Position numbers and translations under genes: made by a program. A DNA stretch of 33,176 nucleotides from Actinomycetota bacterium (GTDB taxonomy: Bacteria > Actinomycetota > Geothermincolia > Geothermincolales > RBG-13-55-18): NCBI GenBank assembly GCA_028697145.1, contig JAQVFR010000037.1, positions 1 through 33,176 of the forward strand, read 5' to 3'. This document shows, in pieces, positions 27,208-33,022 of the stretch; within the stretch, counting starts at the first letter, position 1, and the number at the start of each line of letters is the position of its first letter. Under the pieces are notes generated by a model. It made no database searches. It was not told the DNA's origin and saw only the letters and a list, made by a program, of their open reading frames with translations.

Positions 27208-28026
27208 TCACCGGATCGCGGATCTCCGCAGAAGGCGCATGACGTTGTCCCTGTTGAGAACGGCAGGGTCTGCTCCCAGGCCCAGGAAGGGAGTTACATC
27301 GTCCACCGCTTCCTCCCAGGAAACCAGCTCGAGCCTCTCCCGGACCGCTTTGCGCCAATTCCTTTCGCTTAACGGACTCCCATCCCATCCCGTCTGCCGC
27401 AGTGCGTTGTTGAGGTAAGCAAGATTAGGCGGGGGCCATTCCGGGTCACTCAAGTACCAGGCGAGATCATAGAGATCGCGTCCCTTGAGATATGGGCGCT
27501 GCAGGATAGCATGCAGCTTGTCCGCCAGGAGGGTGGCCCTGTCGTGATGCTGCAGCTGCAGGACGACGTGGCGCCTGATGACCGTGGTGGCAAGGGTCGC
27601 GCCCGCTGGAGGATGCGTATCCACCTCCACCTTAACGGACGACGTCTCTCTGCTGTGCGAGGACAAGCCCAACTCATAATATAGCCCCGGGAAGCGGATG
27701 AAAGCGCTGTGCACGGTCTTCTTGTCGTTGACCTTGAGCTGCACCTCGTACCTTTCAAGAGAGAACTCCCTCTCGACCGCCCTCAGGTATGCGCGGAAAT
27801 CGTATTCGTTCCTTTTTCCATCAAGGGAGAAATCGAGGTCTTCCGAGTATCTGGCGGTCGCGAAGAGGAACCGCAGTGCCGTCCCTCCATGAAAGGCAAG
27901 CGGGACCATAGCCCCCTGGCGCTGCAGAACGGCCAGGATGCGCGCCTGCAGGTACTCTCGCACATCGTTACGCGCCTGCAGAGGCGATGGTGCGGACCGT
28001 GTCAACCCTGACAGGTAGTCTTTCAT
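27208..28026 (-). CDS. AbiEii/AbiGii-type nucleotidyltransferase toxin
   Basis: A 272-residue protein of the AbiEii family (type IV toxin or abortive-infection effector). The nucleotidyltransferase motif is FHGGTALR (46-53) followed by YSEDLDFSLDG with acidic residues Asp63 and Asp65. Later, LLADKLHAILQRPYLKGRDLYDLAWY is the conserved helical motif of the family (K...R..D.D...). Members transfer nucleotides to RNA or other targets and arrest growth. Its ATG overlaps the antitoxin stop in ATGA (4 bases), so it is translationally coupled. The upstream frame extension from 28344 is antisense-like and omitted. It is the downstream cistron of an abiEi-abiEii operon. Confidence 0.9.
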   Translation of the reverse strand: MKDYLSGLTRSAPSPLQARNDVREYLQARILAVLQRQGAMVPLAFHGGTALRFLFATARYSEDLDFSLDGKRNEYDFRAYLRAVEREFSLERYEVQLKVNDKKTVHSAFIRFPGLYYELGLSSHSRETSSVKVEVDTHPPAGATLATTVIRRHVVLQLQHHDRATLLADKLHAILQRPYLKGRDLYDLAWYLSDPEWPPPNLAYLNNALRQTGWDGSPLSERNWRKAVRERLELVSWEEAVDDVTPFLGLGADPAVLNRDNVMRLLRRSAIR

Positions 28027-28664
28027 AGCGTCTCGTACTCCCCTGCCGCCAGGTGTGCCATCTCTTTCAGCCTGTTTATCGCCCTGCGCAGCTTGGGGCT
28101 GCCGGCTTCCTCGGTGAGGCCCACCAGTGAATCTAGGTCCACTGCTTCCAGGTTCTCGAGGCGCAGCTCTTGAAGATATGCCGGCCGATCCGATCCAGGT
28201 TGGAGATACAGCAAGTCGAGCAAAGCCTTCTCTGGGGTGGCGACCAGGGCTTCCTGCCCTCCACCCAGGTCCTCCACATGACTTCCGAAGAACAAGTCCT
28301 TCTTGATATGACGGTATTCGAAGTCTCCGAGGGCCGTGCTCCACACGCCCGGCCGTGATGTAGTGATGCTGGTAACCACAGGCACGTGTTCCGGGATGAT
28401 GCCATGGTATGCGAGGGCTGACTGCAGGCTCACATAGGAGGGCCGCACGATATGATTTGCGACCAGGAAGGGATGCGGCTTGACCTTCTGATAGGGTGGC
28501 GCCAGGGCGTACAGGCCGCGCCGCAACTGCAGCAGGCGGCCGGAAGCGGTCAGGCGCGACAGCTGCCGGCGTACGCTCGCGGGGTCGACGTCCCCCGCCA
28601 GGAGCAGACCGGTTTCGAACAATGGCTCGTCGCCCACGATTTCCTGCAATTTCTCGTATTTCAT
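28023..28664 (-). CDS. AbiEi-type antitoxin, winged-helix transcription factor
   Basis: A 213-residue antitoxin. Its N-terminal winged helix includes DVDPASVRRQLSRLTASGRL and RRGLYALAPP. The characteristic segment YVSLQSALAYHGIIPEHVPV is shared with AbiEi and related transcriptional regulator-antitoxins. AbiEi binds its own promoter and counteracts AbiEii. The start ATG lacks a clear ribosome site; upstream GTG (28721) and ATG (28703) starts in frame would add up to 19 residues, so the start is uncertain. Upstream lie direct repeats atgtcatc (28663-28670, 28705-28712) and tcattatg (28669-28676, 28700-28707), which could be operators. Confidence 0.87.
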   Translation of the reverse strand: MKYEKLQEIVGDEPLFETGLLLAGDVDPASVRRQLSRLTASGRLLQLRRGLYALAPPYQKVKPHPFLVANHIVRPSYVSLQSALAYHGIIPEHVPVVTSITTSRPGVWSTALGDFEYRHIKKDLFFGSHVEDLGGGQEALVATPEKALLDLLYLQPGSDRPAYLQELRLENLEAVDLDSLVGLTEEAGSPKLRRAINRLKEMAHLAAGEYETL

Positions 28665-28881
28665 GTCATCATTATGCCATATATGTCTAGTTATTGTAAT
28701 CATTATGTCATCCAAAGCCACTCACTTCATAACCGGCGACATCAGACATTTTGGGGAATACTTCTCTAGACGAATCGAGGGATTGATCGTTTGCGCTCCC
28801 AGGGATTATCTTAAGGCCAGATGAGGCCGCTCTGGCGAGCTGCACCACTAGTGGCCATAACCAACAGGCAGCAAATCTTGG

Positions 28882-28943
28882 TTGCCATTAATATGCCTTT
28901 ATCGTATTATTGATATATATTATTTGTATTAATAAGGCATATT
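28882..28943 (+). promoter_or_regulatory. vapBC promoter with flanking inverted-repeat operator
   Basis: A promoter with -35 TTGCCA (28882-28887), a 17-base spacer and -10 TATTAT (28905-28910) lies upstream of vapB. It is flanked and overlapped by inverted arms aatatgcctt (28890-28899) and aaggcatatt (28934-28943), separated by 34 bases. The left arm lies between the -35 and -10 boxes. A VapB-VapC complex binding both arms would autoregulate the operon. The stretch is strikingly A+T rich. Confidence 0.65.
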
Positions 28944-28958
28944 TAGAAGGAGGAGATA

Positions 28959-29165
28959 ATGCCGAGGACGACTCTCGAAATAGACGACAGATTGCTATCT
29001 GAGGCGAAAAAGGCCTCGGGGATAAAAACCACGAAAAAGGTGGTAGACGAAGGGCTGAAGATGATAATCAGGCAGAAAAAGCTAAAGAGTGCCGCCCTGC
29101 AGAGGGGATCCGAGCTATCGGGGCTAACCCACGAAGAGCTGGGGTTGTTACGCAAAAATGGATAA
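28959..29165 (+). CDS. VapB-type antitoxin
   Basis: A 68-residue protein with an N-terminal ribbon-helix-helix pattern: RTTLEIDDRLLSEAKKASGI, then TTKKVVDEGLKMII. This is typical of small VapB antitoxins (DUF2191-like) that bind DNA as dimers. The C-terminal part (SAALQRGSELSGLTHEEL) is the flexible segment that would neutralise the PIN toxin. The ribosome site is excellent (gaaggagg). It overlaps the vapC start by 8 bases, so the two are coupled. It is the only TA module of the four here with both genes apparently intact, apart from AbiE. Confidence 0.88.
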   Translation: MPRTTLEIDDRLLSEAKKASGIKTTKKVVDEGLKMIIRQKKLKSAALQRGSELSGLTHEELGLLRKNG

Positions 29166-29559
29166 CAGCTTGGTATTGGTCGATACCTCGGCCTGGATCG
29201 AATTCTACAAAAAGGATTCCGCGGATTCCGATATCGGCGAACAAGTCCAGCATCTGATCAGGGAGGACAGGATCGTCACCACTGAACCTGTTCTGCTGGA
29301 ACTTGCCGCTGGCGTTAGAAGCCTGAAGAAACTCAAGGAACTGCGAGATACTTTTTCCCTCTTCCACCTTGCACAGATCGGGGATGACATATGGCATGAT
29401 GCAACCGATAATATGTTTACTCTGAGAAGGAAAGGCATTACTATCCCTGCGATTGATGTCCTGATCGGTACTGCGGCTATAACCTATGATCTATACCTCA
29501 TACACAGCGATAAACACTATCAGAGCATGGCAGAAATCCTGCCATTGAAGGAATGGTAG
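29158..29559 (+). CDS. VapC-type PIN-domain ribonuclease toxin
   Basis: A 133-residue PIN-domain protein. Acidic active-site residues are Asp9 (VDTSAWIEFY), Glu48 (EPVLLELAAG), Asp100 (PAIDVLIGTAA) and Asp118 (HSDKHYQSM). This order and spacing is that of VapC Mg2+-dependent RNases, which cut tRNA or rRNA when freed from VapB. Length is normal. The gene overlaps vapB. A weak hairpin follows at 29574-29592. Confidence 0.92.
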   Translation: MDNSLVLVDTSAWIEFYKKDSADSDIGEQVQHLIREDRIVTTEPVLLELAAGVRSLKKLKELRDTFSLFHLAQIGDDIWHDATDNMFTLRRKGITIPAIDVLIGTAAITYDLYLIHSDKHYQSMAEILPLKEW

Positions 29560-29573
29560 CCATCAAGTGCTAG

Positions 29574-29592
29574 TCAGCCCATACCTGGCTGA
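29574..29592 (+). terminator. Weak hairpin after vapC
   Basis: Arms tcagcc (29574-29579) and ggctga (29587-29592) with a 7-base loop lie 15 bases past the vapC stop. A T-run (ctggtttt) occurs only 20 bases further on, so it is not a canonical terminator. Confidence 0.25.
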
Positions 29593-29762
29593 TAACCTAT
29601 CCGCCTGATCTGGTTTTAAAATAACTCCACGAGAGTCCCCTTCTTTATGCCCTAGATTTGTATTCATGCAGCCTTTTGATTCCGTATAGGTTAGGACATT
29701 ACAGAATGGATTGGGCTTCTTGATTCGAACCTATTATTGAATTCTCTGTCTCTCGTATGGGG

Positions 29763-29768
29763 TATAAT
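29763..29768 (+). promoter_or_regulatory. Consensus -10 box upstream of mntA
   Basis: A perfect TATAAT lies 34 bases upstream of the mntA ATG. The best -35 is TTGAAT at 29737-29742 with a long 20-base spacer, so the promoter is plausible but not strong. Confidence 0.4.
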
Positions 29769-29801
29769 TTATGTAAGTTTCCAGGTAGTAGGAGGGCCGG
29801 G

Positions 29802-30092
29802 ATGAAGGACTTAGGGGAGATCAAGAAAACCTTATCGTCTCAGAAGCCGATTCTTGCTGAAAGATTTAAGGTTAAGGAGATAGGCATTTTCGGTTCTTAC
29901 GTAAGGGGGGATCAGGAAGATATTAGTGACATCGATATCCTCGTTGAGTTCAGCGAGCCCATCGGCTGGGAGTTTATAGATCTTCTTGAATACCTTGAGG
30001 ACACGTTGAGCTTAAAGGTCGACCTGGTAACATCCAATGCACTAAGATCGCAATTCAAGGAAAGGATACTAAGAGAGGTAGCTTACGTATGA
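29802..30092 (+). CDS. mntA: MntA-type minimal nucleotidyltransferase antitoxin
   Basis: A 96-residue minimal nucleotidyltransferase. The GSx10DxD motif is GSYVRGDQEDISDIDI, with Ser32, Asp43 and Asp45. In the studied HepT-MntA systems, MntA inactivates the HEPN toxin by adding AMP to a tyrosine near its active site. The ribosome site is taggagg; the frame upstream of this ATG is not supported. The stop overlaps the start of the HEPN gene by 4 bases, so the two are coupled. The gene is intact, whereas its partner is truncated. Confidence 0.9.
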   Translation: MKDLGEIKKTLSSQKPILAERFKVKEIGIFGSYVRGDQEDISDIDILVEFSEPIGWEFIDLLEYLEDTLSLKVDLVTSNALRSQFKERILREVAYV

Positions 30093-30439
30093 AGAACAGA
30101 CCATACAAGCTTTTCCTCGAGGATATTGTCGGTTCCATCCAGAAGATACAGAAATATATACAAGAAGTTTCGCTCGAAGATTTCCAGGAAGACAGCCTAA
30201 CTGTAGATGCGGTTCTCAGAAACCTGGAGATAATTGGCGAGGCTTCTAGAAATATTCCGCTCGAAATCAGGTCTAGGTATCCCAACATCCCATGGGGAAG
30301 AATGATGGGGCTTAGAAATATTGTCTCTCATGAGTATTTCGGCATAGATCTCTAAATAATTTGGTAGATTATTACCGTGAATCTACCTGAAACCAAGCCC
30401 CTTATAGAGAAGATGATTCAGGATAGCAAAGAAAACTGA
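30089..30439 (+). pseudogene. hepT: HepT-type HEPN toxin, broken by two in-frame stop codons
   Basis: The open part (30089-30355, 88 residues) has the HepT/DUF86 layout, including TVDAVLRNLEIIGEASRNIP and the RNase motif RNIVSHEY (Arg76, His81, Tyr83), an Rx4HxY with the AMPylatable tyrosine. It ends at TAA (30353-30355). The same frame continues past a second stop, TAG (30365-30367), as ITVNLPETKPLIEKM and ends at TGA 30437-30439. This is the normal C-terminal helix of the family, and both stops sit where Glu codons (GAA, GAG) are expected. Without this helix the protein would lack part of the dimer fold. Total length including stops is 116 codons, as usual for the family. Confidence 0.7.
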
Positions 30440-30584
30440 CCTCTTCTCTTACATTACTGCTGCGGGACCCCCCTCCTGTGGTCATCGCAGTATTGCGGGC
30501 ATAACTTGGCTTGGCTTGCAGTAACTCTTCCTTGCATCGGTTAAGGGTTGGTGATTTGATCAAGCCGCCCATCAAGGATCGTTC

Positions 30585-31025
30585 TTATTCAATCAACTCG
30601 GGAGAGTTTTCGCTCAACCATTCTTTGACCGTGTCCCTTAAGAAAATCGCCAGTTCCAACATCTCGCTGGCTTCGCTATCTGAGACTTGTCCCGCTGATT
30701 CATAGTCGCTGATATTCCTCTTCTTCCTGAATTGGTCGAGCTGGTCGATGATCTCCTTATCGGCCTTGATCGTGAATTCGAGGCTCTGGATAACCCTCAG
30801 ATGGTGGGCCTCGCGCGAGGCACGAAAGCCGCAAGCATAAAGGGCGATGGTCGCCGCTTGCAGGGCAGCATTATATGCGATGTTCATCTTCCAGTCAGGG
30901 CTCAAGCCCGGCACCTGGCTGTCGGGTATGTCTCGCTATATGACTTCGAGCAATCCTGAAATCTCCGCCGAGCTGGTGACGTGCTCAGTCAGCCATTTCT
31001 TCTTATGCCAATCCCTTAAGCTCAT
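30585..31025 (-). pseudogene. HEPN-domain toxin partner of the winged-helix nucleotidyltransferase, interrupted by TAG
   Basis: The frame from the ATG at 31023-31025 (MSLRDWHKKKWLTEH, then TSSAEISGLLEVI) meets a TAG at 30936-30938 (codon 30). It then continues in frame as RDIPDSQVPGLSPDWKMN, IAYNAALQAATIALYACGFR and onward to a stop at 30585. The HEPN motif is FRKKRNISDYE (Arg-Asn-x3-Tyr type), and the family reads I-E-R-D at the stop, suggesting GAG to TAG. The start overlaps the upstream nucleotidyltransferase gene by 23 bases, as is usual for these pairs. A GTG restart (30914) could give a 109-residue fragment with no evident ribosome site. Confidence 0.65.
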
Positions 31026-31617
31026 CCTCGTTCCCAACTAGGAATATCTTTGATGTACCATAGATGGAACTCACGAAGTGATGTCCCGCCTGCAGCTTCT
31101 CACGGAATTCGCCCGCGCTATAGGTGGTGGGATTGATCTCCCGTCCTATTGTGACTTGAGCATCCCGCAGCCTCGAGACAACCTCACGCAACGAAATATC
31201 TCCGATTACGAAGATATCCACATCGCTTTGGGCCGTATCTGTCCCATCGGCGAAAGAGCCGTATATAAATGCCACTCTTATCTTATCCTCGAGGTCTGAC
31301 AACGAAGCCCTGATGACATCGGACATTCCCGCTGTCTTCACCAATAGTGATTTGAGATCCGAGAATATAGGTGAGTCTTTATTCGCCTGATAGAACACCT
31401 GATTACCCCGTTCGAAACGAAGGATTACTCCCGCATACGTAAGATTGGCCAGCTCCCTTTGCACCGATCCCCTGCCTTTTCCGAGGATCCGCATTATCTC
31501 CCGCAGGTAGAACGATTCGGTATCGTTTATGAAAAGCAAGGATAGTATAGACAAGCGCGTTGCGCCGAACAGTGCGGAAGCCAGGCTAGTTATCTCTGTT
31601 TCTCTATAAGTACCCAT
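31003..31617 (-). CDS. Winged-helix/nucleotidyltransferase (MNT) antitoxin-type regulator
   Basis: A fusion of about 204 residues. The N-terminal winged helix covers about residues 8-85 (TSLASALFGATRLSILSLL, then SFYLREIMRILGKGRGSVQR), as in transcriptional regulators. The minimal nucleotidyltransferase domain follows, with YGSFADGTDTAQSDVDIFV (GSx10DxD). Such fusions are usually coupled to a HEPN partner, which here is broken. The start could be the ATG at 31638; the downstream ATG at 31617 is preferred because the putative -10 box lies upstream of it and MGTYRETEITSLASALFG is the usual N-terminus. Neither has a ribosome site. It would repress its own promoter through the two palindromic sites at 31610-31649. 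Confidence 0.8.
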   Translation of the reverse strand: MGTYRETEITSLASALFGATRLSILSLLFINDTESFYLREIMRILGKGRGSVQRELANLTYAGVILRFERGNQVFYQANKDSPIFSDLKSLLVKTAGMSDVIRASLSDLEDKIRVAFIYGSFADGTDTAQSDVDIFVIGDISLREVVSRLRDAQVTIGREINPTTYSAGEFREKLQAGHHFVSSIYGTSKIFLVGNEDELKGLA

Positions 31618-31657
31618 TATAGGTACTATCGTACCCATATAAGGTACTATTTGTCAA
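31610..31657 (-). promoter_or_regulatory. Promoter with two tandem 19-bp palindromic operators
   Basis: Sites gtacccattataggtacta (31610-31628) and gtacccatataaggtacta (31631-31649) are near-identical palindromic sites of the form gtacc-N6/7-ggtac, repeated at 21 bases, two turns of the helix. A -35 TTGACA (31652-31657) lies just beyond the outer one; the best -10 is TACGAT (31628-31633) at 18 bases, between the two sites. They overlap the start of the winged-helix nucleotidyltransferase gene and should be its autoregulatory operator. Confidence 0.75.
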
Positions 31658-31841
31658 CCTACCCCGATGCTGCAGTCTGGCACCTCGCGCAACTTCGAGG
31701 TAGTCAAGAGCTATCTCCACCCAATACACCGCTTAATGTGGCTGGCGCAAAACGAGCCCGAGTGCCTGGAAGGAAAACTCCGGGCGGTGGAAAGCATGGA
31801 GCACTGGAGGAAGACCTGGCCTCCAAAATACTACAGGGGCC

Positions 31842-31863
31842 CTCTTCCCGATAGGGGGAAGAG
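31842..31863 (+). terminator. Perfect 8-bp hairpin followed by a short T tract
   Basis: Arms ctcttccc (31842-31849) and gggaagag (31856-31863) with a 6-base loop are followed by tttctct on the plus strand. It reads as an intrinsic terminator, but no intact plus-strand gene ends here. A 98-codon plus frame (31667-31963) runs across it without a ribosome site. Confidence 0.35.
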
Positions 31864-31921
31864 TTTCTCTGACCTTATAGCCGTCCTGGGCAAGTTTCTG
31901 CCCGGCGATTATTCGACGCTG

Positions 31922-32194
31922 CAGCGTTTCCACGCCCCACCACATGGTTGCCGGTATACTTGAGAATGCCTCTGGTTGTTCGGGGTTTTCGATGAAAAAG
32001 AGGAGGCTAGAGGCAACGATTATAAGAATGAATGCCACGAATAGGGTGACCATAAGCATCGCTTTCTTATCCTTTAGGACGTTCCCTAGAATCTTCATTG
32101 ATTCTGAATACCTGCCCATTTTGAAGATTCTGAACAGCCTAAATAGCCGTAGGGCTCTTGGGAACCTATCCTCCTCTATCGCTTGATTCTCGCC
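31922..32194 (-). pseudogene. Remnant of a voltage-gated ion channel (S4-S6 region only)
   Basis: The frame encodes ENQAIEEDRFPRALRLFRLF then RIFKMGRYSESMKIL, an S4-type helix with repeated Arg/Lys every third residue. Next come KKAMLMVTLFVAFILIIVAS (S5) and FIENPEQPEAFSSIPATMWW followed by GVETL, the start of the pore helix. In intact channels TTVGYGD follows; here the frame turns to unrelated QRRIIAGQ and runs to a stop at 31733. The N-terminal voltage-sensor helices are missing too, and a stop lies just upstream of ENQ. Both ends are truncated, so it is a relic, probably of a K+ channel. Confidence 0.65.
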
Positions 32195-32218
32195 CTACCT
32201 GGGCGGGTTACAGCGGCT

Positions 32219-33022
32219 TCATGGCTCATACCCTCGAGCTTTTGCATCCGATAAGGAAATCGGGATTTTACTTTGCCGTAAGTACTGACATCCGTCGCTG
32301 TGGTACTTCTCTCCGGTCTTCGTAATATAGACCGTAACATCCACGCCTGTAGGGGCTGGTTGAGCGACAACCGGTGGAGGTTCAGCATTAACTGACGGGG
32401 GCGGTGCCCAAAGTCCCAAGTTATTATTTCTTGCCTGTGCTTCAAGCGCTAAGAAATGTTCAGAATACTTCACGTCTGGTGGATACGTAGCAGTGTTGGC
32501 ATATCCTCTAGCCACCAGCTCAGCGTTTACCATAAGGTCGCCGACATATACATATCTTAGGAGTCTCCCATACTTGTCTATCTCGCTTACATCCTTCTCC
32601 ATGCGCACCTGTTTGCCTGCCACTAAGGATGAGTTGGCTACAGTTGACTCTGAGTAGTAGGGTTGCCCTGCTTCGGGGGTATTTATCCCAATATAGCGGA
32701 CCTTCTCAACTTTGCCATCTGGGAAAGTGACTTCAATGGTATCCCCGTCCACAACTCTTGTAACAGTTACAACTTCCCCAGTATTGGATTGAGCTGCCGC
32801 CTCGCTTTGGTCCTCTCCATCTTGATCGGCTGAGGTTTCTTCAAGCCTGTCTGCCTCTGCGGTCTTTTGCTGTTCTTGGGTAATGGGGGTTGCGGCCTGC
32901 TTCGGCCCCTTCTTTTCTTGCCCTACTCCTGCTGCCGCTAGAATTACTGCGAATACTATAAGGAAACCAGCGATCAGGTAAATCCACTGCTTGCGGGTGA
33001 GGCCCGAGAAGAATTCTCTCAT
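32219..33022 (-). CDS. Membrane-anchored thermonuclease (staphylococcal nuclease-like), possibly C-terminally truncated
   Basis: A 267-residue protein. An N-terminal membrane anchor (WIYLIAGFLIVFAVILAAAG, about 13-32) precedes a Gln/Glu-rich linker to residue 80. An SNase domain follows (about 83-205): RVVDGDTIEV, Arg109 (VRYIGINTPE), Glu125 (YYSEST), DKYGRLLRYV with Arg153. These match the three catalytic residues. After a Pro linker the C-terminus is VYITKTGEKYHSDGCQYLRQ, SKIPISLSDAKARGYEP, a zinc-binding module that should end in CxxC. The frame stops (TGA) at that first Cys, with SRCNPPR still encoded after it to a TAG at 32195. The ribosome site is aagggga. Confidence 0.82.
   Translation of the reverse strand: MREFFSGLTRKQWIYLIAGFLIVFAVILAAAGVGQEKKGPKQAATPITQEQQKTAEADRLEETSADQDGEDQSEAAAQSNTGEVVTVTRVVDGDTIEVTFPDGKVEKVRYIGINTPEAGQPYYSESTVANSSLVAGKQVRMEKDVSEIDKYGRLLRYVYVGDLMVNAELVARGYANTATYPPDVKYSEHFLALEAQARNNNLGLWAPPPSVNAEPPPVVAQPAPTGVDVTVYITKTGEKYHSDGCQYLRQSKIPISLSDAKARGYEP

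Follow-up and report, generated by a model that had tools for sequence, protein, structure and literature searches.

A staphylococcal-type nuclease gene carried on a 33,176 nt stretch of Actinomycetota DNA (hereafter the window) is most probably a selenoprotein gene (probability about 0.87), in which an in-frame TGA would be read as selenocysteine (Sec) and the product would be an anchored, outward-facing nuclease ending in an Ada-like UxxC module. The gene had been flagged in a sequence-only reading, which took a Cys-to-stop mutation as the simplest explanation and a UxxC selenoprotein as a possibility. Because selA, selB, a tRNA-Sec and selD are present in the genome, and because the other genomes with this TGA keep a hairpin downstream of it, the ranking is now reversed, with the Sec reading best supported and the mutation the weaker of the two. 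The comparisons support the TGA being a sense codon under selection and the hairpin being tied to it.

The nuclease gene and its homologues

The features of the gene are as follows:

32195..33022, minus strand, proposed full CDS of 275 aa with Sec at residue 268 (U268), ending at TAG 32197-32195
32924..32989, minus strand, hydrophobic N-terminal stretch, about residues 12-33 (translation judged by eye)
32405..32704, minus strand, SNase (staphylococcal nuclease) domain PF00565, E 3.3e-20, 71.7 bits against a cut-off of 21
32198..32335, minus strand, Ada-like C-terminal module, YH-x3-C ... GYxP-U-xx-C-xPP (profile, alignment and fold prediction)
32219..32221, minus strand, in-frame TGA, proposed Sec codon at the first Cys of CxxC; TGA also in genomes G003, G261 and G127
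32195..32197, minus strand, proposed true stop TAG, within the hairpin loop and 3' arm (sequence)
32191..32205, minus strand, proposed SECIS hairpin CGCCC-AGGTA-GGGCG, its 3' arm mostly non-coding

Translation of the ORF with table 11 (start 33022, minus strand) halts at the TGA and gives 267 aa. The thermonuclease identity proposed from the letters was confirmed by the PF00565 match, which passes the curated Pfam cut-off, and the frame does stop exactly at the first Cys of the CxxC motif as claimed (TGA at 32221-32219), running ...AKARGYEP-TGA-SRCNPPR-TAG. The hydrophobic N-terminus, as judged by eye from the translation, is probably a membrane anchor that would put both the nuclease and its tail outside the cell. 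The G+C content of window positions 28501-33000 is 0.475-0.503, against 0.585-0.692 in the rest of the window, and from this drop the nuclease gene may lie inside an acquired island. Other window ORFs include an AbiEii-type nucleotidyltransferase toxin gene (PF08843, E 2.2e-26) among those at 27208-28344 and 28023-28721 (both minus strand), overlapped by an upstream ORF that may be its partner, and a Polbeta-type nucleotidyltransferase at 31003-31638 (minus strand).

Homologues had been expected to carry CxxCxPP at this place, and a search for forms with either Cys or TGA at the codon had been proposed. Both were found: in 115 homologous tail modules the aligned codon was TGC (72), TGT (39) or TGA (4), giving 111 Cys forms. 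These modules were retained from 122 loci that entered the codon and hairpin counts, loci being dropped if they gave no match at E 1e-3, if the alignment did not span the codon, if the flank was short or if N was present. Since three rows (L094-L096) duplicate the places of L039, L040 and L050, and some of the viral loci nearly duplicate one another, the rank test p value of 1.2e-6 overstates the evidence. Columns 39 and 42 were invariant in 13 aligned modules, with the TGA of the four read as Cys.

A search of the phylum (396 genomes) placed the module in 37 genomes, at 39 places. The codon was read directly in 30 of these, while for nine weak places the search reported no internal stop. A stop fell inside the match at six places, four being TGA at this codon and two (G081 and G211) the normal C-terminal stop. 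The four TGA forms belong to the window genome (G000), a member of the same family but another genus (G003), and members of two further families (G261 and G127). In all four the frame is kept beyond the TGA, as xxCxPP followed by TAG or TAA (SRCNPPR, SVCDPPW, SVCNPPS and SRCNPPL). The modules occur on different proteins: SNase in the window and in G261; in G003 a protein without a Pfam match, repeat-containing by eye, the 5' part of which lies beyond the contig; and in G127 a short protein that lacks SNase, resembles a lipoprotein by eye and has a SpoIIP match that is sub-threshold only. As a counterpoint, there are only four TGA forms, two of them from one family. The module is absent from two genomes of the same genus as the window (G001 and G002), and the gene is therefore not conserved within its genus. 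Nine of the 399 genomes in the class of G261, four of the 18 in its family and ten of the 36 in the class of G127 have the module, with no additional TGA form among them. A TGA counted in L089 proved to be the normal C-terminal stop. Two TGA counted in an EF-Tu-like match (L003) are the gene end and a stop beyond it rather than Sec codons within the frame. One TAA was counted in a weak match, L097 (G075).

The module was also present in 76 loci of the viral collection, and no stop falls at the codon in any of the 75 whose alignment extends to it; one of the two viral peptide patterns requires Cys, so that TGA forms could be found through the other pattern only. Stops elsewhere in the match occur in three of the 76, at the C-terminal end after CKICKP in L153 and L154, and within the module in L155, where the alignment ends ahead of the Cys codon. 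The DNA pattern GYxP-TGA-xxCxPP occurred in nine stretches of viral_contigs, none of which is the module. Cys, and not TGA, stands at this codon in two named plasmid homologues, from Peptoclostridium acidaminophilum and Carboxydocella thermautotrophica. On the Carboxydocella plasmid (L186, 51-1188) a small protein annotated as Ada metal-binding adjoins a micrococcal nuclease, and both have a variant CxxCxPP tail end. By eye, the module is also found behind MBL/ComEC-like proteins (L086, L087, L088, L091, L093 and others) and after choline-binding-like repeats or Ala/Glu-rich linkers; judging from these translations, it is common to many proteins, which are probably extracellular.

The hairpin and the selenocysteine machinery

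In bacteria, UGA is decoded as Sec via SelB, a SECIS element and tRNA-Sec, as outlined in PMC1794560 and PMC1088965. The proposed SECIS of the window consists of CGCCC (32205-32201), the loop AGGTA (32200-32196) and GGGCG (32195-32191), all on the minus strand, and straddles the true stop codon TAG. Its sequence and position were as first described, but not the spacing of 18 bases: the stem begins 13 nt past the TGA, and 18 is the distance to the loop.

Hairpins were scored by geometry and energy, requiring four or more stem base pairs, a stem start 9-18 nt past the codon and a G in the first two loop bases. All four TGA forms have such a hairpin, 11-14 nt past the TGA, with energies of -13.4 (G261), -8.6 (G003), -8.2 (window) and -7.2 kcal/mol (G127), whereas only two of the 111 Cys forms match the weakest of these (L088, -10.8 kcal/mol, and L085, -9.8 kcal/mol). 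This difference is strong evidence, and the Sec proposal had hinged on the hairpin being kept in other genomes with the TGA, as it is in G003, G261 and G127. Each of the four is also a stem-loop directly downstream of the codon with a small, G-containing apical loop, the form of bacterial SECIS set out in the relevant part of PMC1088965; their loops, given as five bases each, read AGGTA, TGGTA, AGTTA and TGTAA. The strong hairpins of L088 and L085 are possibly SECIS remnants, of the kind reported in PMC1794560 for other families, or chance products of G+C-rich DNA.

Taken alone, the window hairpin is modest evidence. Among 2000 mononucleotide shuffles, equally good hairpins arose 14 times for the window (45 nt past the TGA), once for G261, 31 times for G003 and six times for G127. 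On both strands of the window, 32 of 867 TGA trinucleotides (3.7%) are followed by a hairpin of -7.2 kcal/mol or stronger, as are nine of 148 (6.1%) in the low-G+C end, this TGA being included in both counts.

The most telling of the hairpin results is the conservation in three genomes of the 3' arm, which lies mostly outside the coding sequence. Over the 5 nt past the true stop, which make up most of this arm, agreement is 5/5 between G000 and G003, 4/5 between G000 and G261, and 4/5 between G003 and G261; over the next 60 nt the same pairs agree at 13, 23 and 15 positions. G127 agrees with the three at 3, 3 and 2 of the 5 nt, and the Cys relative G013 at 0 of the 5. The core stem arms are identical in three TGA genomes and are partly dictated by the encoded NPP. 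The stem of G127 (TCCGC/GCGGA) has different bases and a one-nt shift, so that conservation of the stem is shown rather than strict base-pair covariation; G127 is also one codon shorter upstream, which makes upstream nucleotide counts invalid for it. Scanned against Rfam, the window hairpin and the SelD hairpin described below both gave only matches below gathering scores, and because the SelD hairpin was missed too, Rfam is uninformative for the window hairpin.

A search of the genome for selA, selB, selC and selD, as advised in the sequence-only reading, found all of them. On contig C3, selD (372.9 bits, curated cut-off 125), selA (596.6, cut-off 267.9), selB (382.7, cut-off 242.25) and a tRNA-Sec adjoining selB lie within about 6 kb. 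The selD gene itself has one in-frame TGA (KSG-U-AAK), at the usual place of the Sec of SelD, followed 12 nt on by GGTCC-GGA-GGACC. The same arrangement is present in selD of G003, and it gives the hairpin geometry an internal control in G000 and G003. The TGA homologues of G003, G261 and G127 likewise occur in genomes with both selA and selB: selA is above its cut-off in all four TGA genomes, as is selB (G000 382.7, G003 389.0, G261 325.1 and G127 418.5 bits), but the association with selB is weak evidence because 25 of the 37 module genomes have selB over the cut-off. A tRNA-Sec is found next to selB in G000, G003 and G127; in G261, the 19 kb read around selB yielded none.

The Ada-like tail module

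Pfam, NCBIfam and PDB sequence searches with the tail returned no named family beyond weak Ada matches; DUF6233 matched nine of 13 modules weakly (best E 0.0048). When the PDB was searched with the module profile, up to E 10, the only matches were four sequences of the E. coli Ada zinc-binding N-terminal domain (PF02805; 1u8b, 1wpk, 1zgw and 1adn), at E 0.002-0.007. Module residues 28-45 align to Ada 58-75, with Cys39 and Cys42 of the module falling on Ada 69 and 72. In the fold alignment described next, the start offset places the His and Cys of YH-x3-C, both invariant, on Ada 38 and 42. The invariant positions of the module are His, Cys, Cys/Sec and Cys. An AlphaFold2 model of the module (pLDDT 93.0) could be superposed on 1u8b with 48 of 49 residues aligned, at 2.5 A and a Z of 4.6 (VIA-align; a Z below 8 can reflect a common arrangement), and a Foldseek search with the model ranked Ada first and second, at weak E values of 0.2 and 0.67. 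The module is predicted to have a fold like that of the Ada zinc-binding N-terminal domain, with His at Ada Cys38 and Sec at Ada Cys69.

The metal-binding domain of Ada has four Cys zinc ligands, including the methyl-accepting Cys38. The module lacks this set of four, as it has His at the position of Cys38. Of 13 module sequences, 12 match PF02805 at E values of 1 or less, and the module stays under its cut-off (18.5 against 23 bits); for this reason, and because there is no Cys at the methyl-acceptor position, it is called Ada-like and is not filed under Ada. Two further differences from Ada are the Sec that replaces the Cys69 equivalent, and the setting of the module as the tail of a probably extracytoplasmic nuclease, whereas Ada is a repair regulator.

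Among SNase proteins with a CxxC tail, the Cys form of G013 (same family) has 83% of the module in common with the window protein, and 59% of the nuclease part that aligns, and is the nearest aligned module to that of the window by identity. It differs in having a Cys codon and a weak downstream hairpin (-1.1 kcal/mol). In G013 (L011/L023) the nuclease and the tail module are in different frames, with a frameshift or an assembly error at the junction. In a tree of 34 modules the Sec and Cys forms do not separate; the Sec label needs three changes, no more than which sufficed in 73 of 500 shuffles, and the starred branches force only one. As the tree is poorly resolved, it does not allow the origins of the Sec form to be counted, and repeated Cys-to-Sec changes and losses are both possible.

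Alternative readings and comparison with known selenoproteins

The proposed selenoprotein would be made by the ordinary bacterial route, with SelB and Sec-tRNA(Sec) binding the hairpin while the ribosome stands at the UGA, and Sec being incorporated there. The product would be a 275-residue nuclease, probably membrane-anchored and facing outward, with UxxC in place of CxxC in its Ada-like C-terminal module. Notable in this gene is the position of the putative SECIS across the true stop codon.

An ordinary nonsense mutation would trim the last eight residues from a nuclease that works without its complete tail. A single base change makes TGA from TGC or TGT, and the nuclease domain upstream is intact, but such an event is very unlikely to account for four genomes sharing TGA at this very codon, in genes for different proteins, for xxCxPP and a true stop being conserved beyond it, for a 3' arm conserved in three genomes amid otherwise unrelated non-coding DNA, and for selA and selB in all four genomes. 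Even less probable is a hairpin that has nothing to do with the TGA, being either an intrinsic terminator or chance G+C-rich pairing. It does overlap the gene end, and hairpins as strong arise in some shuffles (14 and 31 of 2000 for the window and G003) and are present at other TGA trinucleotides of the window and in two Cys forms. Against this, no T run follows the stem, where the sequence is AGAATCAAGC (gggcgagaatc from the 3' arm on), hairpins of such strength accompany every TGA form and very few Cys forms, and the offset is nearly that of the SelD hairpin. The least credible of these explanations is that TGA is read without selenium, as Cys, Trp or another amino acid, through a reassigned code or a suppressor. 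The frame conserved beyond the TGA would be accommodated, but TGA ends five of 19 chosen window ORFs (the nuclease ORF included, and not all 19 being proven genes) and terminates an EF-Tu-like gene on contig C32, no in-frame stop interrupts the matched parts of selA and selB, the genome holds selA, selB, tRNA-Sec and a TGA-containing selD, and a reassigned code would need no hairpin.

The role of the Sec is a separate matter. The UxxC may work as a redox pair of thiol and selenol, or may capture reactive or toxic compounds, rather than being a metal ligand, a possibility with a real but less than even chance; it shares the Sec reading with the preferred explanation, and the odds of the two overlap. 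UxxC is frequent in the selenoprotein inventory of PMC13188914, where a redox function is presumed for most families. Against this role, the Ada zinc site is matched by the profile, by the predicted fold and by the invariant positions (His, Cys, Cys/Sec and Cys), and the thioredoxin fold is absent among the few fold matches listed for the module model, which does not exclude one. Within the selenoprotein reading, the Sec would most likely act as a selenolate that reacts with metal or in redox chemistry, within a binding module outside the cytoplasm. More tentatively, and with somewhat less than even odds, a selenolate may have replaced a thiolate zinc ligand at the Ada Cys69 position of an extracellular Ada-like module, perhaps more than once. 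Anchored nucleases, and two or more other proteins, would then have a natural Zn-Se(Sec) site, and with a SECIS lying across the true stop, the end of translation and the decoding of Sec would depend on a single RNA element.

The 2026 inventory of prokaryotic selenoproteins comprises 119 families and subfamilies, and the portion cited here includes no nuclease and no Ada-type zinc domain (PMC13188914); its main text contains neither 'nuclease' nor PF00565 or PF02805. None of the nine new families of deep-Sep, as given in the corresponding part of PMC12013277, is of this kind. The word 'nuclease', even within longer words, is absent from the main texts of PMC13188914, PMC12013277 and PMC9312934, and a search of open-licence papers gave, among the matches listed, no title on a selenoprotein of the SNase/Ada-like family. 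The suggestion that Sec would be new for the thermonuclease family agrees with its absence from the inventory and from the deep-Sep families. Sec as a metal ligand is not a new idea, as PMC13188914 already suggests it for other families while describing direct Sec-metal contacts as unconfirmed for most; it is the domain that is new. If the reading is correct, this is a new selenoprotein family whose members are truncated at the Sec codon by standard translation. It would also provide a compact natural system, with Cys and Sec forms of one 46-residue module in related genomes, and a module so small and separable would let direct Sec-metal contact be tested.

The closest parallel in the same genome is its Sec-containing SelD, which likewise has an in-frame TGA and a short hairpin 12 nt downstream; the SelD hairpin lies wholly inside the CDS, whereas that of the nuclease gene straddles the stop codon. 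Two other selenoproteins, of the FmdB and PF01035 families, to our knowledge have different domains, and neither is an Ada-type N-terminal zinc module or a nuclease fusion. Both are described in PMC13188914: the FmdB-family selenoprotein (UxxU) likewise has Sec in a small Cys-based motif, and the Sec-containing methylated-DNA-protein-cysteine methyltransferase (PF01035) is likewise a protein related to DNA alkylation.
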